This document shows positions 8,132 through 20,742 of a stretch of DNA of 64,000 bases, piece after piece. Each line of letters begins with the position of its first letter. Positions within the stretch are counted from its first letter, which is position 1. Source of the DNA: Bacteroidia bacterium (GTDB lineage: Bacteria > Bacteroidota > Bacteroidia > JADZBD01); the NCBI GenBank assembly GCA_020852255.1, contig JADZBD010000009.1, positions 1-64,000 of the forward strand. Reading direction: 5' to 3'. Position numbers and translations under genes: made by a program. Under the pieces are notes generated by a model. That model was not told where the DNA came from. It searched no databases and saw nothing but the letters and a program-made list of their open reading frames with translations.

Positions 8132-9751
8132 TTATCCCCTCAGGATTTGAAAGAACCCGGGAAATACGCGACCATCGGATACGTACAAAATGAAATAATA
8201 AACCCCGTCGGAATGGTTCTTGCCGTTATAATCATTTTTATAATCCGGATTGTCGTACAGTTTATTGCCCCATCGGTTGTAGATCACCAGCCGGCTCCCC
8301 GGAAAATTCTCCAAATTCTGAAACTCCAGGTTTTCATTGAACTGGTCGCCGTTGGGTGTAATCACATTGGGTACAGGTATTTCGCAATCCAGATCGGTCA
8401 CATACACAGTGTCCGTAAACGTTTCCGTACAGATAGACTGATTGACTGTAAGAGTGACCACATAGGTACCTGCCTGTGTGAAGGTAACAAGAGCCGTTGT
8501 TCCGGTGGCGGTGGTGGGATTGGCATTGGGTCCGAAGTTCCAGGTAAACGTAGCGTTGTTAAGGAATAGTCCCTGCGCCGCAAATGCAAGGGCGCTATCA
8601 TTTTCACAATAAACCGTAGGCGGAATGAAACTTGGATCCAGCAATGGATAGATTGTAACGGTGGCATAGCCGGTATCCGCACAGGTGGATCCAGGGTTAC
8701 CAATCAGCATAACTGTGTAAGTTCCTGTATCGGAATAGGTCCAGGTGGGTGAAAATAATGAGGAAGTATCTCCCGTAGTGGTGGGATCACCAAAATTCCA
8801 GAAGTAAGATGTTGCCCCGGTGGAGTTATTCGCAAAATTGATTGTCATACTTGCACAGGTAGACACCTGTGGCGGTACAGAAGATACCACCAGTCCGGGG
8901 CAATTAAGCACATTGAACTGATAGTCTCTTTTATTCACACTCAGTAATTGTCCGTTGCGCCATTCTTCCACACAAACGGCCGCCACCCAGTTTCCGATCA
9001 GGTTCGGTGTACCCGACAAAACACCTGAATTTACATTAACGGTAAAAGCAGGACTCGAGGCAATGGGATAGGTGGCATTATAAGGCGGTTGCCAGGGTAC
9101 AAAATTATACGGTGGCGGTGCCGGAGGCTGCGGCATCGGATTCACCTGCGAGGCTCCGTCCCAGGGGTCACAAAACTTGTATGCGAGAGAGTCTCCATCC
9201 GGATCTGTAGCGCTGTGATTAAATAAAAAGGGCACATTGGTGCACATAAAAAGAGGCGGAAGGCTATCGTAGCGCGGAGAACTGTTACAGGTGGCAAGGG
9301 AAGGATCAGGAATGCTCACTGAGATTGAAGATCCGACCGTGAGCGGATTAATGATATTCAGAATTGTGCTGTTTCGGCAGCAACGCTGGTACACCAGTGT
9401 ATATCCACCGGTCAGCGGCGGAAGATTCACGGTGTCTCGGTAAACCGCTTCTTCCACGCAAACATTTGTCGGGGGAATAAAACAAGGGTTGTTTAATGTT
9501 AATGGCATTGTATCCGAACCGGTATACGGTATTAACACGTTCTGGATGAGTACTCCGTTGATGTCATAAATTCCAATGGAGGCAGGATTGTCGTAGGGCG
9601 CCTGTCCGTTATAACAATCGCGGTACACCTTTAGTGTAATCTCGTAATTATTATTGCCCAGGCAGGTATAGTAGATTTCTCCGCCCACAATATGCGTAGC
9701 GCAAAGGGGAACCGCAATAGCAGTGAAAAATATCAGGATCGCCCTTTTCAT
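8132..9751 (-). CDS. T9SS type-B surface protein with two PKD domains
   Basis: This is a 539-residue exported protein. The signal peptide ends PLCA before THIVGG. Residues ~20-290 are a paralogue of the protein at 208. Two PKD-like beta-sandwiches follow: around residues 300-370 (SYFWNFGDP) and 380-450 (FTWNFGP). The C-terminal ~85 residues are a CHU_C/gliding-motility sorting domain (VITPNGDQFNE, IYNRWGN, DGVYYFILY). It is the last gene of a three-gene minus-strand operon: its ATG overlaps the upstream stop (9748-9751, ATGA). It is likely secreted through T9SS and attached to the cell surface; a carbohydrate or protein ligand is possible but unproven. Confidence 0.88.
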   Translation of the reverse strand: MKRAILIFFTAIAVPLCATHIVGGEIYYTCLGNNNYEITLKVYRDCYNGQAPYDNPASIGIYDINGVLIQNVLIPYTGSDTMPLTLNNPCFIPPTNVCVEEAVYRDTVNLPPLTGGYTLVYQRCCRNSTILNIINPLTVGSSISVSIPDPSLATCNSSPRYDSLPPLFMCTNVPFLFNHSATDPDGDSLAYKFCDPWDGASQVNPMPQPPAPPPYNFVPWQPPYNATYPIASSPAFTVNVNSGVLSGTPNLIGNWVAAVCVEEWRNGQLLSVNKRDYQFNVLNCPGLVVSSVPPQVSTCASMTINFANNSTGATSYFWNFGDPTTTGDTSSLFSPTWTYSDTGTYTVMLIGNPGSTCADTGYATVTIYPLLDPSFIPPTVYCENDSALAFAAQGLFLNNATFTWNFGPNANPTTATGTTALVTFTQAGTYVVTLTVNQSICTETFTDTVYVTDLDCEIPVPNVITPNGDQFNENLEFQNLENFPGSRLVIYNRWGNKLYDNPDYKNDYNGKNHSDGVYYFILYVSDGRVFPGFFQILRG

Positions 9752-11634
9752 TTAGTTCCCAGTATCTGAACGAATCCGGGAAACACTCTTCCGTCTGCTA
9801 CGGTAAGTACGAAATAATAAACTCCGTCCGCATGACCTCCTCCATTCCAGTTGTTCAGGTAATCTGATTCATCGAGTACAATACTTCCCCACCGGTTGTA
9901 AACCACCAGATGGCTGTTTGGAAATTTATCCAGATTTTCGAAGACCAGCAGCTCATTATCGCCATCGTTATTGGGAGTAAACACGTTCGGAATACCGAGA
10001 ATACAATCCATGTCTACGATTACATCAACTGTTTGGGTACCCACCTCCCCGCAAAGGTCTGTAACAACAATATTGTACGTGCCATTGGCCGTGGGAATAA
10101 ACGTATTGGAAGACGCGGTTGGATTTGGAACCGTGTCCGGACCTGTAACCGTTGTCCATAGGTAGGAATAAGCAGGCGCACCTCCATTTACAAGGGCCGC
10201 CAGGGTTAATTCCTTCCCTTCGCAAACCGTTATGTCCGGAGTCACCACGTTTACCGGACCCGGAGGTAACACAGTAACAGTGACGGATTGCGGACTCACG
10301 TTGGAATTACAACTATCTGTAACCTGTAAAGTATATGTGGTGGTTGAAGAAGGCTGTACAGTAATCAGGGTAGTGGTTGCCCCGGTAGACCAGTTATAAG
10401 AATAAGGTTGTACCCCCCCGCTGACATTACTGAACAATGTAACCTGATTACCCGGACAAATGGTAGTATCATTCGGAAGGCTAAGCACCACCGGTGTAAC
10501 ATCGCCGATATACAATACGCCATTGGTCGCACCTGAAGTACAAGGACCCGAGGTAAGCGCGCTGATCAACAGTGTATCCAGCCCCTCTGTAATGTTATCC
10601 TGCGGGGCACTAAAACAAAGAACGATTGAATCTTGTCCCGGTGCGAAAATCAGCTGATTAGGAATTGCGGGCACGATATCCACGCCATTCACGGCGTTTC
10701 CTGAAAAAGTAAGTGTAATGGTATCCGGATTCTGAAGATTCGAGTTGCCCCGGTCGAACACGATACAGGCGGTGCCGCAACTTTCGAAGAGGGTTGAATC
10801 ATTGGGACCCCCGTAAGAGATATTCGTAGAAATGGTCACCTGTGAGGCGGAGAAGGAACCCGCTTTCAGGAACACTCCGGAATCATACGCACCGTCGCCG
10901 ATGTCGGCCACTACCAGTTTAATATGATATGTTTCACCACAAATGACAGGATACTGGGCCCGCATTGGTACTGTAAAACCGTCATAATTCACTGTTAGCC
11001 CGGGAGGTGTTTCATTATCAAAGTAATATTGCGGATACGAATTGAGGTTGACATTGTCAATCGTTACCGGCGTATTGGGAGGAGCTGGCGGCGCCGGAAT
11101 AAGTGCAATGTTCGTAGGAACCAGAGGAGTTGACACCCCGCTGAGAATAAATGCAAAAGCATCGTTAAAACCTGTATTCACCCACTCCATGTATTCTTCC
11201 GACCCGAACACATAATCAAACTTCACGGTATCCGCCATCGGAATAAAATCAAATTCGATCACGGCGGCGTCGTAGCTTCCGTTCATCGTATTATTAGTAA
11301 TGTTCTCCAGGTCCACATCACCGGGCGTGCTGTTAATCACGGTTGCCCATCCCGTATTATTGGGTCCCACCGCAGAATCGATATGCCCCGAGGTGAAAAC
11401 AATGCCCGAATCCAGCATCACATTTGAGCTCATTCCGTTAAAATATCCCACGGCCACCGTAGCCCCTGTATAGGTAATATTGAATGCCTGTATACCGGTT
11501 CCAAGTAATACGTTCTGCACCAGGTACTGGATGTTATCGTAAGGCGGCTGATTACTCACCACTAACTGCGACTGCCCGGCGAAGGGCAGCGAAACAATTG
11601 AAACCAGAAGAATGATCTTTCGAATGAAACCCAT
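9748..11634 (-). CDS. T9SS type-B surface protein with choice-of-anchor L domain
   Basis: This is a 628-residue exported protein with a signal peptide at 1-22. Residues ~30-265 form a choice-of-anchor L domain, recognisable by LVQNVLLGTG, GYFNG, FDFIPMADTV, VFGSEEYMEW and CGETYHIKLVVADIGDG. A Calx-beta-like sandwich (~270-375) and two Ig/PKD-like modules (~385-545) follow. The C-terminal CHU_C domain (FTPNNDGDNE, VYNRWGS, DGVYYFVL) directs T9SS export. It is the middle gene of the operon: it starts 11 nt after the paralogue at 11646 and overlaps the next gene by 4 nt. The domain family is known from Bacteroidota surface proteins but has no biochemical role I can assign. Confidence 0.87.
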   Translation of the reverse strand: MGFIRKIILLVSIVSLPFAGQSQLVVSNQPPYDNIQYLVQNVLLGTGIQAFNITYTGATVAVGYFNGMSSNVMLDSGIVFTSGHIDSAVGPNNTGWATVINSTPGDVDLENITNNTMNGSYDAAVIEFDFIPMADTVKFDYVFGSEEYMEWVNTGFNDAFAFILSGVSTPLVPTNIALIPAPPAPPNTPVTIDNVNLNSYPQYYFDNETPPGLTVNYDGFTVPMRAQYPVICGETYHIKLVVADIGDGAYDSGVFLKAGSFSASQVTISTNISYGGPNDSTLFESCGTACIVFDRGNSNLQNPDTITLTFSGNAVNGVDIVPAIPNQLIFAPGQDSIVLCFSAPQDNITEGLDTLLISALTSGPCTSGATNGVLYIGDVTPVVLSLPNDTTICPGNQVTLFSNVSGGVQPYSYNWSTGATTTLITVQPSSTTTYTLQVTDSCNSNVSPQSVTVTVLPPGPVNVVTPDITVCEGKELTLAALVNGGAPAYSYLWTTVTGPDTVPNPTASSNTFIPTANGTYNIVVTDLCGEVGTQTVDVIVDMDCILGIPNVFTPNNDGDNELLVFENLDKFPNSHLVVYNRWGSIVLDESDYLNNWNGGGHADGVYYFVLTVADGRVFPGFVQILGTK

Positions 11635-11645
11635 GTAATTAAGTT

Positions 11646-13637
11646 TTATCTAACCACAGAGACGTGTGTTATTTTTTCAAGCTTAATGTTATTCGGTCCT
11701 TTGATTTTAAACGTTGCTACATAGGTGTCCTCGGGAACAACAGACCCCTTATATGTTCCATCCCACCGGGTATCAATATGATTCGATTTGAAAACCAGTT
11801 CACCCCACCGGTTGAAGATGAGCATTTCATATTCCAGAACTGCTACTCCGATTCCTCCGTATGTTGCATTATGACCGTCGTTATTCGGGGTAAAGGCATT
11901 CGGCGCCCAGAAGTAGAAATCAGGATACACCGTCACATAATCATACACCGTATCCGTGCAGCCATAAGCATCCGTGATAATCAGCATTACCGTAAAGGTG
12001 TTGGTTTGATCATTGGGATAGGTATGGCTCGGACTAACTGCGGTTGAAGTGTTGCCATCGCCGAAATCCCAGAAATAAGACACGGCCGGCGTGGACGTGT
12101 TTGTAAAATCAATGGTATTCACGGTAGCATACCCATGCGTGAAGGAAGCTAAAGGCTGAGAGATATGGACGTTGATCGATTGCGTACTAACGTTACCGCA
12201 GGTGTCCGTAACAGTTACTGAATACGAGGTAGTGTTCATTGGTCCCGGATTCAGCGAAACCAGAGGAGTTGTTCCCAGGGAATGAGACCACTGGTAGGTA
12301 TAACCCGGCATACCACCAAGCACAAAGGCCTCCAGCGAAGTTGGATCTCCTGCACAAATGGTGTCATTGTATGCCTGCATGCCTAAAGAAATAGGTAAAA
12401 CATCTAATATAGTTACCACAATCGTATCCGGAGCTCCGTTGTTGCAGGGCCCCGCGGCAGGGATGATGAGTATGATGGTTTCCGGACCTTCATTATTGTT
12501 ATCGGGTGTGGGAGTAATCGTAATGGCGACTGAATCCTGACCGATCTGGAAGATGACATAGTTGGGAATATTCGCATAGTCGGTACCATTTCCTGCACTT
12601 CCCAGAATCTGGAACGACACCGTATCCTGTGTTATGGTTTGATTCCCCCTGTCGAAATAAATCACCAGTGAACCGCAACCCTCGTAAACCGTGCTATCAC
12701 TGCCCAGAATATTTCCGTTTGCAGAAGATGCGGAACCAACAACAACGCCCGAAGAAGAAAAACTCCCCGCTTCAAGAAACACTCCTGAATCGAGTATATG
12801 GTCGCCACCATCCGCTATTGCAATTTTGATATGATACGTTTGTCCGCAGATCACCTGCGATTCCGCAGTGAGCACCACGGTTTGTCCGTCATATTGGTGT
12901 GTGGTTTGAGCCGGTGAGGTCGGACAGTTGTAAGAAGGCGGGCAAACATTGGCCCATGATTGTGAATTCTGCGGATCATTACAAATGTAAAACGGTGAAT
13001 TCTGCGGATTGCAGTTCACATTGAACATGGTCACATATGTATTAGGAGGTGCGGGAGGAGACGGCACCAGTGCAATATTCTTGGCATTATTTGAAAAAGG
13101 TCCGTTGATGCCCGGACCAGATATAAAGAATCCGAATCCGTCATTAATGCCACCGGGCATGGAACTCACGTATTCCATATACTCTTCGCTTGCAAAGCAG
13201 TAACGGAAACGAACCGTATCGGACATGGGAATAAAATCGAACTCGAGTATGGTTGCATCATAACTCAGTGTAGGCGAAAAAACGATGTCGAGATCCGGAT
13301 CTCCGGGGAGATTATTTGACTGGGATGCACCTGTCTGGTTGTTTTGCCCCTGTGCATTAAAGATAGTTCCGCAGGAAAGTATCACACCAGAGTTAATGCC
13401 GATGTTTGAATTTTGTCCGTTAAAAAAACCAATGGTATTCGGTGCGCCGTTGAAGGTAACGTTCATGATCTGCACGCCGGATCCGGTAAGCACGTTTTGA
13501 ACCAGCCACGCCGGATTATTATTATTCGGCGGCGTATTGTTCACCGTAAGCTGTGCGGTAGCAAAGGAACAAGCAAGAATTCCAGCCAGGAAAGGAATCC
13601 TGTTCAATTTCCCGATGTGCTTTTCAGAATTATTCAT
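11646..13637 (-). CDS. T9SS type-B surface protein with choice-of-anchor L and PKD domains
   Basis: This is a 663-residue exported protein. The start chosen is ATG 13637, giving MNNSEKHIGK and then a hydrophobic signal ending FATAQ. An in-frame ATG at 13664 would add nine residues, but a promoter (13652-13683) lies across that extension. The choice-of-anchor L domain (~25-290) shows LVQNVLTGSG, FDFIPMSDTV, ASEEYMEY and CGQTYHIKIAIADGGD. A Calx-beta-like sandwich, an Ig-like module, a PKD domain (SYFWDFGDG) and a CHU_C tail (FTPNNDGHN, IFNRWGE, WDGTYKG) follow. It heads the operon 13637-8132 and is a tandem paralogue of the protein at 9748. Confidence 0.86.
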   Translation of the reverse strand: MNNSEKHIGKLNRIPFLAGILACSFATAQLTVNNTPPNNNNPAWLVQNVLTGSGVQIMNVTFNGAPNTIGFFNGQNSNIGINSGVILSCGTIFNAQGQNNQTGASQSNNLPGDPDLDIVFSPTLSYDATILEFDFIPMSDTVRFRYCFASEEYMEYVSSMPGGINDGFGFFISGPGINGPFSNNAKNIALVPSPPAPPNTYVTMFNVNCNPQNSPFYICNDPQNSQSWANVCPPSYNCPTSPAQTTHQYDGQTVVLTAESQVICGQTYHIKIAIADGGDHILDSGVFLEAGSFSSSGVVVGSASSANGNILGSDSTVYEGCGSLVIYFDRGNQTITQDTVSFQILGSAGNGTDYANIPNYVIFQIGQDSVAITITPTPDNNNEGPETIILIIPAAGPCNNGAPDTIVVTILDVLPISLGMQAYNDTICAGDPTSLEAFVLGGMPGYTYQWSHSLGTTPLVSLNPGPMNTTSYSVTVTDTCGNVSTQSINVHISQPLASFTHGYATVNTIDFTNTSTPAVSYFWDFGDGNTSTAVSPSHTYPNDQTNTFTVMLIITDAYGCTDTVYDYVTVYPDFYFWAPNAFTPNNDGHNATYGGIGVAVLEYEMLIFNRWGELVFKSNHIDTRWDGTYKGSVVPEDTYVATFKIKGPNNIKLEKITHVSVVR

Positions 13638-13651
13638 GAACTGATCTTCTA

Positions 13652-13683
13652 CAAATATACTCATACAGAGTGAATTAAACGAA
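13652..13683 (-). promoter_or_regulatory. -33/-7 promoter of the surface-protein operon
   Basis: On the minus strand TTCG (13683-13680), 20 bp, then TATATTTG (13659-13652) fits the Bacteroidota promoter, with a perfect -7 box. Transcription would begin near 13648, inside the longest frame, so translation should start at ATG 13637 with a leader of ~11 nt. Confidence 0.6.
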
Positions 13684-13840: not shown

Positions 13841-15208
13841 ATGCAATACATTGAAATTCATAGAGATAGGTTCATTCAGGAGCTTATTGAACTCCTACGG
13901 ATACCCTCCATTAGTGCTGATCCTGCCTACAAGGAATCTGTAAGGGTTTGTGCTCTGAAGGTAAAGGAGTACATGGATGCCGCCGGGATTGAAAAAACGG
14001 AGATTTGCGAGACCGGGGGACATCCACTTGTTTACGGCGAAAAGATTCTTGATCCGAAACTTCCCACTGTTCTGATATACGGACATTACGACGTTCAGCC
14101 GCCGGATCCTGTGGAATTATGGAATTCACCGCCCTTTGAACCGCAGATTAAAGACGAAAAGATTTATGCACGCGGTTCAGCGGACGACAAGGGACAGTTC
14201 TTCATGCATTTGAAAGCCTTTGAGGTCATGTTGAACCAAGGCGGACTACCCTGCAATGTAAAGTTCATGATCGAGGGAGAGGAAGAAGTAGGTTCTGACA
14301 ACCTCGGACCTTTTTTGGAAAAGAACAAAGAGAAACTCAAGGCGGATGTGATCCTGATCTCCGATACGTCTATTATTGCCAATGATGTTCCTTCGATCAC
14401 CGTTGGACTTCGCGGTCTGAGTTATTTTCAGGTAGAAATAACGGGGCCGAACCGCGACCTGCATTCCGGGCTTTACGGAGGCGCAGTGGCAAACCCTGTG
14501 AATATTCTTTGCGAAATGATCGCGAAACTGAAGGATGAAAAAAATCGGATTACCATTCCCGGATTTTATGATGATGTGCGTGTATTAAGCGCGGAAGAGA
14601 GAAAAGAAATGGCCCGTGCGCCGTTTGATCTCAATGAATACAAGAAGCACCTCAACCTGAAAGATATTCACGGTGAGGAAGGGTTTTCTACTGCAGAGCG
14701 TACCAGTATTCGTCCCACCCTGGATGTGAATGGTATCTGGGGCGGTTATACAGGAGAAGGTGCAAAAACCGTAATTGCCTCCAAAGCTTTCGCCAAGATC
14801 TCCATGCGTCTTGTGCCGGATCAGGATCATGAAAAGATCACAGAACTTTTCTGCCGATATTTCCCTACGCTTGCCCCACCCTCAGTATCCGTGAAAGTGA
14901 TTCCGCATCACGGAGGAAATCCCGTGCTTACACCCACGGATTCTGCGGCGTACAAAGCGGCCAGCAAGGCGATGGAGAAAACCTTCGGTAATGTACCTGT
15001 GCCTGTACGTGGCGGCGGAAGTGTTCCCATTGTAGCACTTTTTAAGGATATTCTTGGTCTGGACAGCGTACTGATGGGCTTCGGACTGGACAGTGATGCT
15101 ATTCATTCCCCCAATGAACATTACGGAATTTTTAATTACCTTAAAGGTATTGAAACGATTCCCTGGTTTTTCCGTTATTATTCGGAATTGGCAGGCGAAA
15201 AGAAATAA
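13841..15208 (+). CDS. M20-family dipeptidase
   Basis: This 455-residue metallopeptidase belongs to the carnosinase/CNDP-like branch of M20 and cleaves short peptides using two Zn2+ or Mn2+ ions. The sequence shows GHYDVQP (His82, Asp84 as catalytic and metal region), RGSADDKGQ (bridging Asp115), EGEEEVGS (catalytic Glu148, metal Glu149) and the dimerisation-domain motif RDLHSGLYGG. A metal His lies in the C-terminal FGLDSDAIHSPNE motif. There is no signal peptide, so it is cytosolic. It starts a plus-strand group running to 17540: the next gene begins 14 nt after its stop. Exact substrate is unknown. Confidence 0.92.
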   Translation: MQYIEIHRDRFIQELIELLRIPSISADPAYKESVRVCALKVKEYMDAAGIEKTEICETGGHPLVYGEKILDPKLPTVLIYGHYDVQPPDPVELWNSPPFEPQIKDEKIYARGSADDKGQFFMHLKAFEVMLNQGGLPCNVKFMIEGEEEVGSDNLGPFLEKNKEKLKADVILISDTSIIANDVPSITVGLRGLSYFQVEITGPNRDLHSGLYGGAVANPVNILCEMIAKLKDEKNRITIPGFYDDVRVLSAEERKEMARAPFDLNEYKKHLNLKDIHGEEGFSTAERTSIRPTLDVNGIWGGYTGEGAKTVIASKAFAKISMRLVPDQDHEKITELFCRYFPTLAPPSVSVKVIPHHGGNPVLTPTDSAAYKAASKAMEKTFGNVPVPVRGGGSVPIVALFKDILGLDSVLMGFGLDSDAIHSPNEHYGIFNYLKGIETIPWFFRYYSELAGEKK

Positions 15209-15222
15209 CAGTCCATTATCGG

Positions 15223-17088
15223 ATGTTCAAACGAATCCTTTTTGTTTTAGCTGCTGCAGCGGTCTGCCTTCCGAACGGAGGATTTGCCCAGCAAACCATG
15301 CATAAACTGCAAGGGGTGGAAGTGCTTTTGCACGATACCCTTGAAAACGATCCCTTTCCCGGACTTGACAGCACTGTAGCGAATTATAAAGTGTTTTTTA
15401 CCGGGGAGGATCACACCTTTACTTCGAGCAACATCCTTCTTGAACTGAAAATGATGCGTTTCCTGCATAAAAAAGCCAGAATGCGTGTGCACCTTCTTGA
15501 ATTCGGCGCGAGTGTCGGGTGGTTAGTGAACAATTACGTTCAGACCGGCGACACTTCTTACCTGACAGCACTGAAAGATTATTCCTACAAAGATTTCCGT
15601 GCACTTTTCACAGGGCTGCGGGATTTCAATGCCAGGCAGGATTCTGCCAGCCGTATCCGTGTAGTAGGGCTGGACCTGGAATGGTCTTTCTCTACTTCCT
15701 GCAAGGTGCTTAGCCTGCTGCTCAATGACAGTGTAACTCCTGCATCTGAGATCGCACTCTCGGTGGAAACCATCAGGGGTCTGGCGGAGTATGTAACAAC
15801 GAACTATAACGGTCGCACAGCCTATGGCGGCGGAGGTTTTGGCAGCCTGTATTCAGGTAATTTCGACATCGAGAATGCCATGATGTCCGTTATGGAAAAC
15901 TACTACTCTAACCGCGATGCCTTCCAGAAGTGTATCAAAAAAGAACCGGAAACCTTCGAAAAAATCATGAATGGTATCCGGGAGTGGAAGAAATGGAAGG
16001 AATATGAAGAAAAACAGATGATCCAGGGAACATACTTCAGGGAGCAATACATGTATGACCGTTTTATGGAAGTATACAAGAATAATCCCGGGGTTTCATT
16101 CTACGGACAATTCGGACGTTGCCACGTGGCCCGCAATGTACAGTCGCAGTGGTGTAACTCGTATATGTTCAATGCTGTTGCCGGACGAATGAATACATCC
16201 ACGGATACTACGCTGCGGAACAAAGTGTTTACCATCGCTGTTTATTATCCCAACGCTCACCGGACCTCTTCCGGAAAATTCCTCTTCGGATTTGAGCCAA
16301 CACCGGAAGAGCAGGAGATCTCCCGTTATCTTGATTCAGACCGGCGTACGGGATTATTTCTTTATGAGGTAAGTGCTGACACCGCATTAAAACGGATCAT
16401 GACCGACAAATTCCAGTATTTACTGTTGAATTTCTCTCCGCACGATGACGACTCCGAGCGAAACAATACCGGAAAGTACAAACCCTATGAGCACAGTAAG
16501 ACGTACTATCACGCGGATGGTTTCATTACCTTCCACTACATGAACACATCCAGCTTGTTCACGTTTCTCAGCGAAAGTGGTTTCATAGCCGACAACAACA
16601 GAATTTCGCAGGCAGGAGGAGGCTTAACGATCTGTGAAAACGGTTATCAGGCAGCACAAATGCATTACACCTACTTTCTTCCGGTAGCGTTCCGCGACAC
16701 GGCCGGCACTTCAGGAAAAGTCAGTGGTTATCAGTTCATGTTCCGCACCGGAAGAGAAGTAGGTCCACGCAACTGGTTTCAGGCCTTCCCTTATCTGGGA
16801 ATTGGATTCGGAAATATGAAGCTTCATTTTTCCGATGAGAATGCACCTAACGGGATTTTCGGTTCCCCGAACAAAGAAAACTACCGGAATAACGCCTTCC
16901 TTATGGACGTGGGTGCTGATGTTCGTACCAACATTGGTTTTGTTTCTCTCGGAATCCGCGGAGGCTTCATGCTGGACACATCAGATAAAGTATGGAAATC
17001 CGGAGACGACGTAATCGCCAATGCACCTCGTACGGGGATGACAGGGCTCTATTATTCTTTTAACGTTTCCCTGTTTCTAAGCGAATGA
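15223..17088 (+). CDS. Exported erythromycin-esterase-like protein with barrel-like C-terminal domain
   Basis: This is a 621-residue protein with a signal peptide (ends GGFAQ, ~residue 23). Residues ~35-440 resemble the erythromycin esterase/ChaN-TIKI hydrolase superfamily: FFTGEDHTF (Glu62, His64), VHLLEFGAS (Glu93), VVGLDLEWS and GQFGRCHVAR (His301). These resemble the Glu/His set of Ere enzymes, although the first Glu-His spacing is one residue shorter. Residues ~440-621 change to alternating beta strands rich in Gly and aromatics (GYQFMFRTG, FPYLGIGFG, FVSLGIRGG, GLYYSFNVSL), like an outer-membrane barrel or part of one. An enzyme-barrel fusion is an inference. Macrolide resistance should not be assumed. 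Its stop overlaps the next start (17085-17088, ATGA). Confidence 0.7.
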   Translation: MFKRILFVLAAAAVCLPNGGFAQQTMHKLQGVEVLLHDTLENDPFPGLDSTVANYKVFFTGEDHTFTSSNILLELKMMRFLHKKARMRVHLLEFGASVGWLVNNYVQTGDTSYLTALKDYSYKDFRALFTGLRDFNARQDSASRIRVVGLDLEWSFSTSCKVLSLLLNDSVTPASEIALSVETIRGLAEYVTTNYNGRTAYGGGGFGSLYSGNFDIENAMMSVMENYYSNRDAFQKCIKKEPETFEKIMNGIREWKKWKEYEEKQMIQGTYFREQYMYDRFMEVYKNNPGVSFYGQFGRCHVARNVQSQWCNSYMFNAVAGRMNTSTDTTLRNKVFTIAVYYPNAHRTSSGKFLFGFEPTPEEQEISRYLDSDRRTGLFLYEVSADTALKRIMTDKFQYLLLNFSPHDDDSERNNTGKYKPYEHSKTYYHADGFITFHYMNTSSLFTFLSESGFIADNNRISQAGGGLTICENGYQAAQMHYTYFLPVAFRDTAGTSGKVSGYQFMFRTGREVGPRNWFQAFPYLGIGFGNMKLHFSDENAPNGIFGSPNKENYRNNAFLMDVGADVRTNIGFVSLGIRGGFMLDTSDKVWKSGDDVIANAPRTGMTGLYYSFNVSLFLSE

Positions 17089-17540
17089 ATGCAGTCCTCA
17101 AAGCCTGTGCTTACCTTCTTCCCCTGCTCTTCCTGGCAGGTTGTAAAGTGGCCCCCGTTTATATCAGCAAGATTGAAGGAAGCAAAATCATTAAACTGGA
17201 TAAAACCGGTGTGAAGGCTGAAGTATTTCTGAGGATTAAAAATCCAAATAGTATGGGATTTAAGATCCACCGGACCGCATTCGACTGTGAACTCAATGAC
17301 ATTCCGGTGGGAAAGGCTTATCTGAAAAAGAAAATAAGAGTAAAGGCGAATTCAGACGATGTTCACACCTTTGTGATAGAATCAGATTTTTCTAAGCTGG
17401 GATTAAAAGAACTTGCCCTGATCCTGAATCTGGCCACTGCAAAATCTGTGAAGGTTCATGTGAAAGGCAATGTCAAGGTGGGCAAGTTCCTTCTACGTAA
17501 GGAATTTCCCATTGATGTAACCCAAACAGTCAGCTTGTGA
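17085..17540 (+). CDS. LEA type-2 family lipoprotein
   Basis: This 151-residue lipoprotein has the lipobox LAGC (lipidated Cys20) after a hydrophobic signal. The rest matches the LEA14/water-stress (WHy) beta-sandwich pattern: FLRIKNPNSMGFKI, CELNDIPVGKAYLKKKIRV and the C-terminal HVKGNVKVG. Bacterial LEA2 lipoproteins are small envelope proteins of unclear role. It is translationally coupled to the esterase-like gene. Its stop codon abuts the stop codon of the opposing small gene, together making the palindrome TGTGATCACA (17536-17545). Confidence 0.8.
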   Translation: MNAVLKACAYLLPLLFLAGCKVAPVYISKIEGSKIIKLDKTGVKAEVFLRIKNPNSMGFKIHRTAFDCELNDIPVGKAYLKKKIRVKANSDDVHTFVIESDFSKLGLKELALILNLATAKSVKVHVKGNVKVGKFLLRKEFPIDVTQTVSL

Positions 17541-17723: not shown

Positions 17724-19775
17724 ATGACCAACGCACTCCAACACGAAACAAGCCCCTACCTGTTGCAGCACTCAGAAAATCCGGTGGACTGGCATCCGTG
17801 GAATGAACAAACCCTTGCACTTGCCAAAAAAGAGAACAAACTCATCCTGGTTAGCATAGGGTACTCTGCCTGCCACTGGTGTCATGTGATGGAGCGGGAA
17901 TGCTTTGAAGATCACGAAGTGGCGGAAGTAATGAATCGGTATTTCATCAATATTAAAGTTGACCGCGAGGAACGGCCGGATGTAGACCAGGTATACATGA
18001 CGGCGGTGCAGGTAGCCACGGGCAGCGGCGGATGGCCTTTGAACTGCTTCACCCTACCCGACGGGAGACCACTCTATGGAGGAACGTACTTCCCAAAGTC
18101 AAAGTGGCTGCAAACACTGGAACATCTCGCCGACCTCTGGATGCGTGACCCGTTAAGAGCTGCAGAATATGCAGGGCGACTAACAGAAGGAGTAAAGCAA
18201 TCTGAGCTGATTCTGCCGCCGGAACCGGGGACCCTGGCCAACCGTTCCTTTATTCATACCGCTGTCCGAAAATGGCAATCCCGGTTCGACACCCGGGAAG
18301 GTGGCCCGGATCATTCTCCCAAATTTCCCCTTCCCAACAACTATTCCTTTCTGCTTCGTTTCGGAAATTGCCCGAAAGAGAACGGTATCAGTAGCCAGGA
18401 CGGTGAACCGCCTGATCCAGCCCTAATCCTAAAACAGGTCAGGCTCACACTGGATAAAATGGCGAGGGGAGGGATTTACGATCAGATCGGAGGAGGATTT
18501 TGCCGTTACAGCACCGATGCGGTATGGAAAGTACCTCACTTCGAAAAAATGCTGTACGATAATGCACAACTCATTTCACTTTATGCGGAAGCCTTGCGTT
18601 TCTTTCCTGCAGAAGAATACGAAGAATTGCTCCACGAAACAATATCATTCTGTGAACGGGAGTTGCTCGATCCTTCCGGCGGGTATTATTCAGCGCTGGA
18701 TGCCGATTCAGAAGGAGTGGAGGGAAAGTATTATCTATGGAGCCGGGAAGAAGTGGAATCCCTTCTTGGACCGGACGCCGGGCTATGCATGGAATACTTC
18801 CATCTGGACCAAAGCGGGGCATGGGAAGGAGCCTATATACCACTTCGCGCCGGAACTCCTGAACAATTTGCAGCCGGGCACGGAATAAGCCCTGAACAGC
18901 TACGTCACCAACGAACCATTTGGAAAAACACGCTCCTGCACGCCCGTCAAAAAAGAATACGACCGGGTCTGGACGATAAAATCATTACCTCATGGAACGC
19001 AATGATGATACAGGGTTTGATCCGGGCGGGGGAGGTTACAGGAGATGCGAATTACATTTCCCGTGCCGTGCGCTGCGCCGGATTTCTCCGGCGTGAAATG
19101 CTGAAACCCAATGGCGGAATGTACCATACATGGAAAAATGGAACTGCCGCTGTGAACGCCTTTCTGGACGATTTGTCCTTTACCGCTCTGGCCTTTACCG
19201 AACTTTATGAATGTACGCTTGATGAAACCTGGCTGAACCTGGCGGGAAATCTGACAGAACATGCGCTTGGGCACTACAGCGATGAAAAGCAATGCTTTTT
19301 TTATTTCACGTCGGACGAGGACACGCCGCTCATTGTGCGAAAGACCGAAATCAACGACAATGTTATCCCCTCTTCCAATGCCGTCATGGGCGAAGCACTG
19401 CGGAAGCTTGCGATTCATCTTGGGAAACGGGAATGGGCAGACCGTGCGCTGAGAATGTACCTGGCCGTTCAGAAAGAATTTTCTGCTTACCCCCCCGGCT
19501 ACTCCTGCTGGATGATGCTCGGGCTAAGTCTGACAGGGGATTCCGCAGAGGTCAGCATTGTTGGAAACTCTGTTAATGACTTCCACCGGTTGCTTCGTAA
19601 AAGGCTTCCCCCTCACCTGATCTTTGCCGGTAGCCGGGGTTCTTCCACGCTGCCGCTGCTCATCGGCCGTCACAAGGAGGAGGAGACCCTGGTTTATGTA
19701 TGCAGGAATGCCTCATGCCGGGAACCTGTAAAAACGGCGGAAGATGCTCTTAGATTGCTTCAAGCGGATAATTAA
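17724..19775 (+). CDS. YyaL/SSP411-family thioredoxin-domain protein
   Basis: This 683-residue cytosolic protein has an N-terminal DUF255/Thioredoxin_7 domain (~1-165) with the CxxC motif ACHWCHVME (Cys50, Cys53) and family markers [18 protein letters not shown] and [11 protein letters not shown]. Residues ~190-650 form the alpha/alpha toroid of six-hairpin-glycosidase type ([43 protein letters not shown]). The family (SSP411, YyaL) is widespread and conserved; a redox or sugar-epimerase-like role is suspected but unproven. Length is normal. The following gene starts inside its last 32 bases. Confidence 0.92.
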
Positions 19776-20742
19776 CCTTGCAGGCCTGGTTCTGATTCCA
19801 TCGCTTTCCCTTTCCGCGCAACTGATTGACCATAAACCCTTCTGGATAGAAACCACACCTTACCGTTTCAATCCAGATGTTATCGCCCAGCAAAAAATCC
19901 ACCGGGTGGTGGTTAGTATGCAGGAAAAACTCGACGATTTCCCCATTGAAAACAAGGGGCTCCATGATATTTACGAATTCGACAAGCTGGGACTGGTCAC
20001 CCGATTCATTCATCTGACCATTCGTTCCCGCGAGCTGGTAGAAATCAAAGTGCCGGCCGTGTACAATAGCCGTGGCCGCAAGATCAAGGCGGCCACTACC
20101 CGTGATGAATACGTCTATACCTTCGATACCACGTTTACCTGGTTCCGCTACGATGAGCACCGGCGTTTGATCATGCGCCGTACCCACCAGGGAGATTATT
20201 TCTTTACCTGGTACTACGATTACAATCAGAATGGCTTCCTTTCAAGACAAACCTATTGCAGGGAAACAAGCAAAAATCCGGATATACAGCAGTTTGAACT
20301 GGGTGTTCAGACCATCATATCAACAGAGTCCTTCGATTATATCTTTCAAACGGCCAGCCAATTGCGGAAAGCCTTTCTGAATGATGAAGGAAAGGAATAC
20401 CGCAGTGCTATCATCAACTTCTCCAAATTTTTTGTGGAAGAGAACCACTCTTACACGGTTGGGTTCGTTAAGTACTACAATCTATACACATTCAACGAGC
20501 AGGGGCTGCCGGCGGAGTCAAAAACCTCCACGAATGCCAACGGTGACATCAGTTTCCGGACATTATATGAATACGACCAAAACGGCGTGTTGTCGGGAGA
20601 GAAACGATTCAGGGATACCGTTCATACGAACAATGTAACCTGGCTGTATACGGAACAGTCACCGCTGGTAAAAGCGCGTCTTGATCGTGACCTTGAAAAG
20701 AAAAAAATAGGGATAGTGAAATTCTCCTACGAATTCTACTGA
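19744..20742 (+). CDS. Exported protein of unknown function with YD-like repeats
   Basis: This 332-residue protein has a signal peptide (residues 1-25, ends SLSAQ). The mature part contains several short segments of the type [36 protein letters not shown] and YEYDQNGVL. These resemble degenerate RHS/YD beta-hairpin repeats or the MORN-like text repeats seen in Bacteroidota exported proteins. No enzyme motif is seen. The start overlaps the 3' end of the upstream gene by 32 nt and is supported by the signal peptide. The 3' end overlaps convergent lptB by 7 bp. Function unknown. Confidence 0.72.

Follow-up and report, generated by a model that had tools for sequence, protein, structure and literature searches.

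The window analysed here, a 64,000-nucleotide stretch of Bacteroidia DNA, encodes at 15223-17088 on the forward strand an exported protein of 621 amino acids in which a predicted hydrolase of the erythromycin esterase (Ere) fold is followed by a C-terminal outer-membrane β-barrel, as judged from the open reading frame, Pfam, AF2 modelling and Foldseek. On the structural model, this two-domain layout is almost certainly real, and it is conserved in a family sampled at some 80 Bacteroidota loci. Taking the layout, a periplasm-facing orientation and hydrolase activity jointly, and leaving the substrate aside, we lean towards the combined reading, which draws on analogy with the characterised esterase EreC.

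The reading frame runs uninterrupted between the coordinates given, and all features described below lie on the forward strand unless stated otherwise. An earlier note on this DNA had called the protein exported, and a signal peptide is indeed present at residues 1-22 (15223-15288), with cleavage, placed by eye, expected after GFA and before Q23, a residue at least 90% conserved across the family. The protein is the sole full match within its own 3.28-Mb genome. A scan for promoters and terminators returned sites no more numerous than in shuffled sequence.

Of 395 genomes of the class that were searched, 36 gave matches. Two-part proteins of about 610-700 amino acids were present in about 15 other genomes, while further genomes encoded stand-alone enzymes of about 365-430 amino acids or stand-alone barrels. 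A pattern built from this one protein retrieved no relatives; an alignment-based pattern, scanned over one genome per species for 84,980 species, found 82. Eighty of these were retained, almost all of them carrying a Bacteroidota label. The two parts therefore co-occur in relatives, the outcome of the survey that the earlier note had proposed. One member (L095) comes from a record titled Sphingomonadales bacterium and branches inside the Bacteroidota family; the label of this MAG is probably wrong. Separately, three other Bacteroidota proteins of about 575 amino acids (L138, L140 and L146) have a long N-terminal extension that puts their Ere motif, GENSH, at around residue 235.

The domain assigned to the Ere/TIKI superfamily occupies approximately residues 30-410 (15310-16452). 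It matches Pfam PF05139 (Erythro_esteras) at E=1.2e-6, scoring 28.9 bits against a curated cut-off of 26.4, and 12 of the 17 members of alignment A1 match the same family at E<=1. Searched against PDB chains, the family profile retrieved Bacillus Ere-type proteins (E=4.5e-12 for 2qgm, and 4.7e-11) and EreC (6xcq, E=1.8e-4), in each case over the region containing the GE motif and E93. AF2 gave no usable model from the single sequence (pLDDT 32.5); built from the 80-homologue alignment A2, the model reached a mean pLDDT of 87.6. With this model, ranks 1-6 of a Foldseek search of the PDB were taken by 2rad, 3b55, EreC and 2qgm (E from 1e-12 to 4e-11, probability 1.00), the EreC entry 6xcs scoring E=2.1e-12 at probability 1.00. 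A profile-profile comparison also joined the domain to Ere-like proteins that stand alone in Bacteroidota (E=1.5e-49). The N-terminal domain is thus modelled as an Ere-like fold, in keeping with the placement in the Ere/ChaN/TIKI superfamily first made from motifs, and a fold unrelated to Ere or TIKI is not what the prediction returned.

In EreC, the catalytic set comprises E47, H50, E78, H289 and R261, the last acting as transition-state stabiliser (PMC7979712). All five positions are filled by near-invariant residues in the window protein: E62 and H64 of the GEDH motif (residues 61-64; 15403-15414) correspond to E47 and H50, E93 (15499-15501) to E78, R273 of an R273-E274 pair (16039-16044) to R261, and H301 of C300-H301 (16120-16125) to H289. 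The EreC spacings are reproduced, at 31 residues for both E62-E93 and E47-E78 and 28 for both R273-H301 and R261-H289, R273 and H301 being equated with the EreC residues by spacing and fold and not by superposition. Across the 80 rows of A2, G61, E62, H64, N70, E93, D151, E153, R273, E274, R299, C300, H301 and C311 are near-invariant, with R273 and C311 (16153-16155) present in 80/80; E62, H64, E93, R273, E274 and H301 are kept by all active copies that cover them. Because the scan pattern included ...G[QS]FGRCH, conservation around H301 was partly selected for, while E62, H64, E93, R273, E274 and C311 lie outside the pattern. The window copy departs from the family at position 154, with W where 73 of the 80 have R. 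The GEDH, Glu93 and His301 pattern picked out in the earlier note thus stands. C300 and its likely disulfide partner C311 are retained by five alignable inactive copies (see below), even where H301 is gone; they probably form a structural disulfide, which would fit an oxidising compartment.

By analogy with EreC, we consider the window copy to be quite probably an active hydrolase. After Sec export and insertion of the C-terminal eight-stranded barrel into the outer membrane, the barrel would hold the hydrolase at the periplasmic side. H64, oriented by E62, would activate a water molecule held by E93 and H301, and R273 would stabilise the tetrahedral intermediate, so that a carboxylic ester or lactone could be cleaved without a metal.

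The first-motif histidine lies at E+2, as against E+3 in EreC (E47...H50), and the one-residue shift that had been remarked on is real relative to EreC. It is not odd, however, since most of the stand-alone Bacteroidota relatives examined carry GExH and since RRSP, a TIKI-type endopeptidase, has the same spacing (Glu-3900/His-3902; PMC6254334). This spacing also lies behind the alternative that survives best, in which the layout is as described and the enzyme is a TIKI-type endopeptidase trimming envelope proteins or peptides, not an esterase. The superfamily does include both esterases and peptidases, and RRSP presents a comparable set (E3900/H3902, E3930, H4030; PMC6254334). Yet sequence and best fold matches both point to the Ere branch, the 621-amino-acid protein has no Pfam match to the TIKI/TraB or ChaN families up to E=1, and the spacing does not discriminate, being shared with the stand-alone Bacteroidota Ere-like proteins. 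We judge a peptidase to be improbable, if the most credible of the competing accounts.

Turning to the C-terminal part, AF2 placed eight strands within residues 427-620 (16501-17082), the first at 427-440 and the last at 608-620. Hydrophobicity alternates along these strands with a score of 0.90, compared with 0.39 +/- 0.10 in shuffles (0/5000 as high), and Foldseek returned OmpA first (E=2.7e-7), then Ail, OmpW, OmpX, NspA and other outer-membrane barrels, which bears out the switch to alternating barrel strands that had been proposed from about residue 440. Mean inter-strand lengths in the family are, in order, 20.8, 2.4, 3.9, 7.9, 16.4, 2.4 and 23.6. The long loops (~21/4/16/24) accordingly lie opposite both termini and the turns (~2/8/2) on the side of the termini; eight amphipathic strands with short turns on one side and long loops on the other are what an eight-stranded barrel has. 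Periplasmic turns of outer-membrane barrels are usually short. As the short turns share a side with the N-terminus, the modelled topology makes it likely that the enzyme domain faces the periplasm.

The opposite arrangement, surface display with the barrel as an autotransporter-like anchor, has in its favour the order of the parts, N-terminal passenger and C-terminal barrel, and the presence of the esterase autotransporter EstA (3kvn) among the weak fold matches (E=1.3e-3). Autotransporters combine a surface passenger with a 12-strand translocator, whereas eight strands are modelled here. The best matches are eight-stranded barrels of the OmpA, OmpX and Ail types, the N-terminus is borne on the short-turn side, and eight-stranded barrels are too narrow for a passenger. 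We therefore regard surface display as unlikely and retain the periplasm-facing orientation.

The barrel is an independent module, since it is found alone and behind other N-terminal parts: as stand-alone proteins of about 220-290 amino acids (L031-L033, L144 and L149), behind MORN_2 repeats (L025) and, on contig C15 of the window's own genome (G000; L157:2234-3502), in a 422-amino-acid protein with a different, repeat-like N-terminal part.

In 34 loci, a second family member lies directly upstream of the active gene, most commonly overlapping it by 4 bases. These partners also bear barrels, and GExH is present in 0 of the 30 complete ones. Barrel-bearing partners without the motif are seen at L069, L087, L091, L093-L095, L098, L099, L101-L114, L116, L117, L119-L123 and L126 (for example L116:2551-4785). 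On the tree, the five alignable partners group together as one clade (support 100/98), next to the active genes of the paired lineage; their E62 and H64 are gone, as are most instances of E93 and H301. In profile comparisons, partners that have diverged further can still be matched to most of the family's length (E=1.3e-25 and 4.3e-24), and their assignment to the same duplicate is based on where they lie and in what order. All this is most simply read as a single ancient duplication, long retained. A search of the window's own 3.28-Mb genome found no upstream inactive partner.

A paralogue long kept without catalytic residues would imply that the Ere/barrel fold has a non-catalytic use in the family. 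It also lends some weight to the notion that the protein is in general a ligand binder or scaffold, much as ChaN of the same superfamily binds haem. For the active copies we find this quite unlikely, as they retain every catalytic residue wherever it is covered, with no exception; a hydrolase remains the preferred reading for them.

In the window, the gene order is an M20-family peptidase (13841-15208; 14-base gap to the enzyme gene), the enzyme gene, a LEA_2-domain lipoprotein with a LAGC lipobox (17085-17540; ATGA overlap) and a DUF255/DsbH-like protein, the first and third identified by reading frame and Pfam. The coupling to an LEA-like lipoprotein put forward in the earlier note is real as far as the overlap goes, but the adjacency is not conserved and carries little functional weight. 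LEA_2 relatives occur in 94 of 198 class genomes, and M20 stands directly beside LEA_2, with no enzyme gene between, in six genomes (G001, G006, G019, G021, G059 and G158). Genomes with this arrangement include one that belongs to the same family as the window genome, and in some the DsbH-like gene follows; among the examined M20-LEA_2 neighbours (13841-17540, L161, L162, L165-L167 and L169-L171) only the window genome has the enzyme between them. The enzyme gene was therefore either gained in the window genome or lost elsewhere. Two genomes with both enzyme and LEA_2 genes (G190 and G191) have them on different contigs. We thus rejected LEA_2 as a clue to function: the link is incidental. No homologue of the window's M20, LEA_2, DsbH-like or 332-amino-acid proteins was found among 855 ORFs from the neighbourhoods of the 80 loci. 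The last of these (19744-20742) looks exported, overlaps the end of the DsbH-like gene, has no convincing Pfam match, and has a homologue in the same position in L172. On the other side, the reverse strand carries three consecutive large genes (8132-13664), of which the second (9748-11634) has a type IX secretion signal of the CHU_C kind at its end.

Across the family, though not in the region of the tree that contains the window's copy, a CDP-alcohol phosphatidyltransferase gene (pssA, phosphatidylserine synthase) lies directly downstream of the enzyme in 40 of the 80 loci (for example L077:6112-6840). Four representative downstream genes match the pssA model TIGR00473, three above its cut-off. 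The pssA-adjacent loci all fall within one half of the family tree, and the adjacency appears old because it is found on several deep branches with otherwise differing surroundings; it may be inherited synteny. The window genome has its pssA on another contig, and other family neighbours include unrelated housekeeping genes. A separate observation concerns the Crocinitomix-type loci (L060, L064, L066, L073, L079, L080, L085 and L088), in which a PspA/IM30 gene, connected with membrane stress, lies upstream, itself preceded by a CesT/YbjN-like gene.

Since half of the sampled loci sit beside pssA, we tentatively suggest that the enzyme cleaves an acyl ester in some envelope lipid on the inner side of the outer membrane, a guess taken from gene neighbourhood that is possible and somewhat on the unlikely side. 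More speculative still is a scheme in which the Ere-type hydrolase and, in one clade, its dead barrel-bearing tandem paralogue, encoded beside pssA, would jointly remodel or survey phospholipids there. The same surroundings weigh against detoxification of antibiotics or lactones by a periplasm-held macrolide esterase. The Ere fold and the complete EreC catalytic set would suit such an enzyme, but the protein scores 20.5 bits against the NCBIfam EreB cut-off of 750, and the family is old, diverse within one phylum and flanked by pssA and housekeeping genes, not resistance genes; we hold this to be very unlikely. That the C-terminal part is a soluble β-sandwich is scarcely credible: no Pfam barrel family matches it, but the confident AF2 strands, the alternation test and the outer-membrane barrels heading the fold matches all predict a transmembrane-type barrel of eight strands.

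The proposed layout would give the Ere/TIKI superfamily a branch anchored in the outer membrane, and it suggests a connection, open to experiment, between this chemistry and the metabolism of envelope lipids in Bacteroidota. The tandem of active and inactive copies would be a clean natural case for the role of a membrane-tethered pseudoenzyme. Moreover, Bacteroidota proteins named 'erythromycin esterase' need not be resistance enzymes.

A literature search found no description of the Ere-barrel layout in the open-access papers searched; a study of graspetides mentions an Ere homologue, unexplained and without this layout, at other loci (PMC8939145). The family resembles EreC and other Ere esterases, including the Bacillus Ere-type proteins 2rad, 3b55 and 2qgm, in its predicted N-terminal fold, its E/H/E/R/H positions and PF05139. 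It differs from these solved proteins in having the barrel, an R-C-H motif with an invariant cysteine pair, and the first-motif histidine at E+2, compared with E+3 in EreC. With RRSP, a TIKI-superfamily endopeptidase, it shares the set of two histidines and two glutamates and the E-x-H spacing (PMC6254334); unlike TIKI/TraB proteins, it groups with Ere by sequence and carries a barrel in place of the domains appended to TIKI endopeptidases. The barrel is like OmpA, OmpX, Ail and OmpW in size and topology, but unlike them follows an enzyme and matches no Pfam barrel family. The autotransporter esterase EstA, finally, illustrates the same principle of an enzyme domain anchored in the outer membrane, although its catalytic fold is unrelated and its barrel is of the larger autotransporter type.
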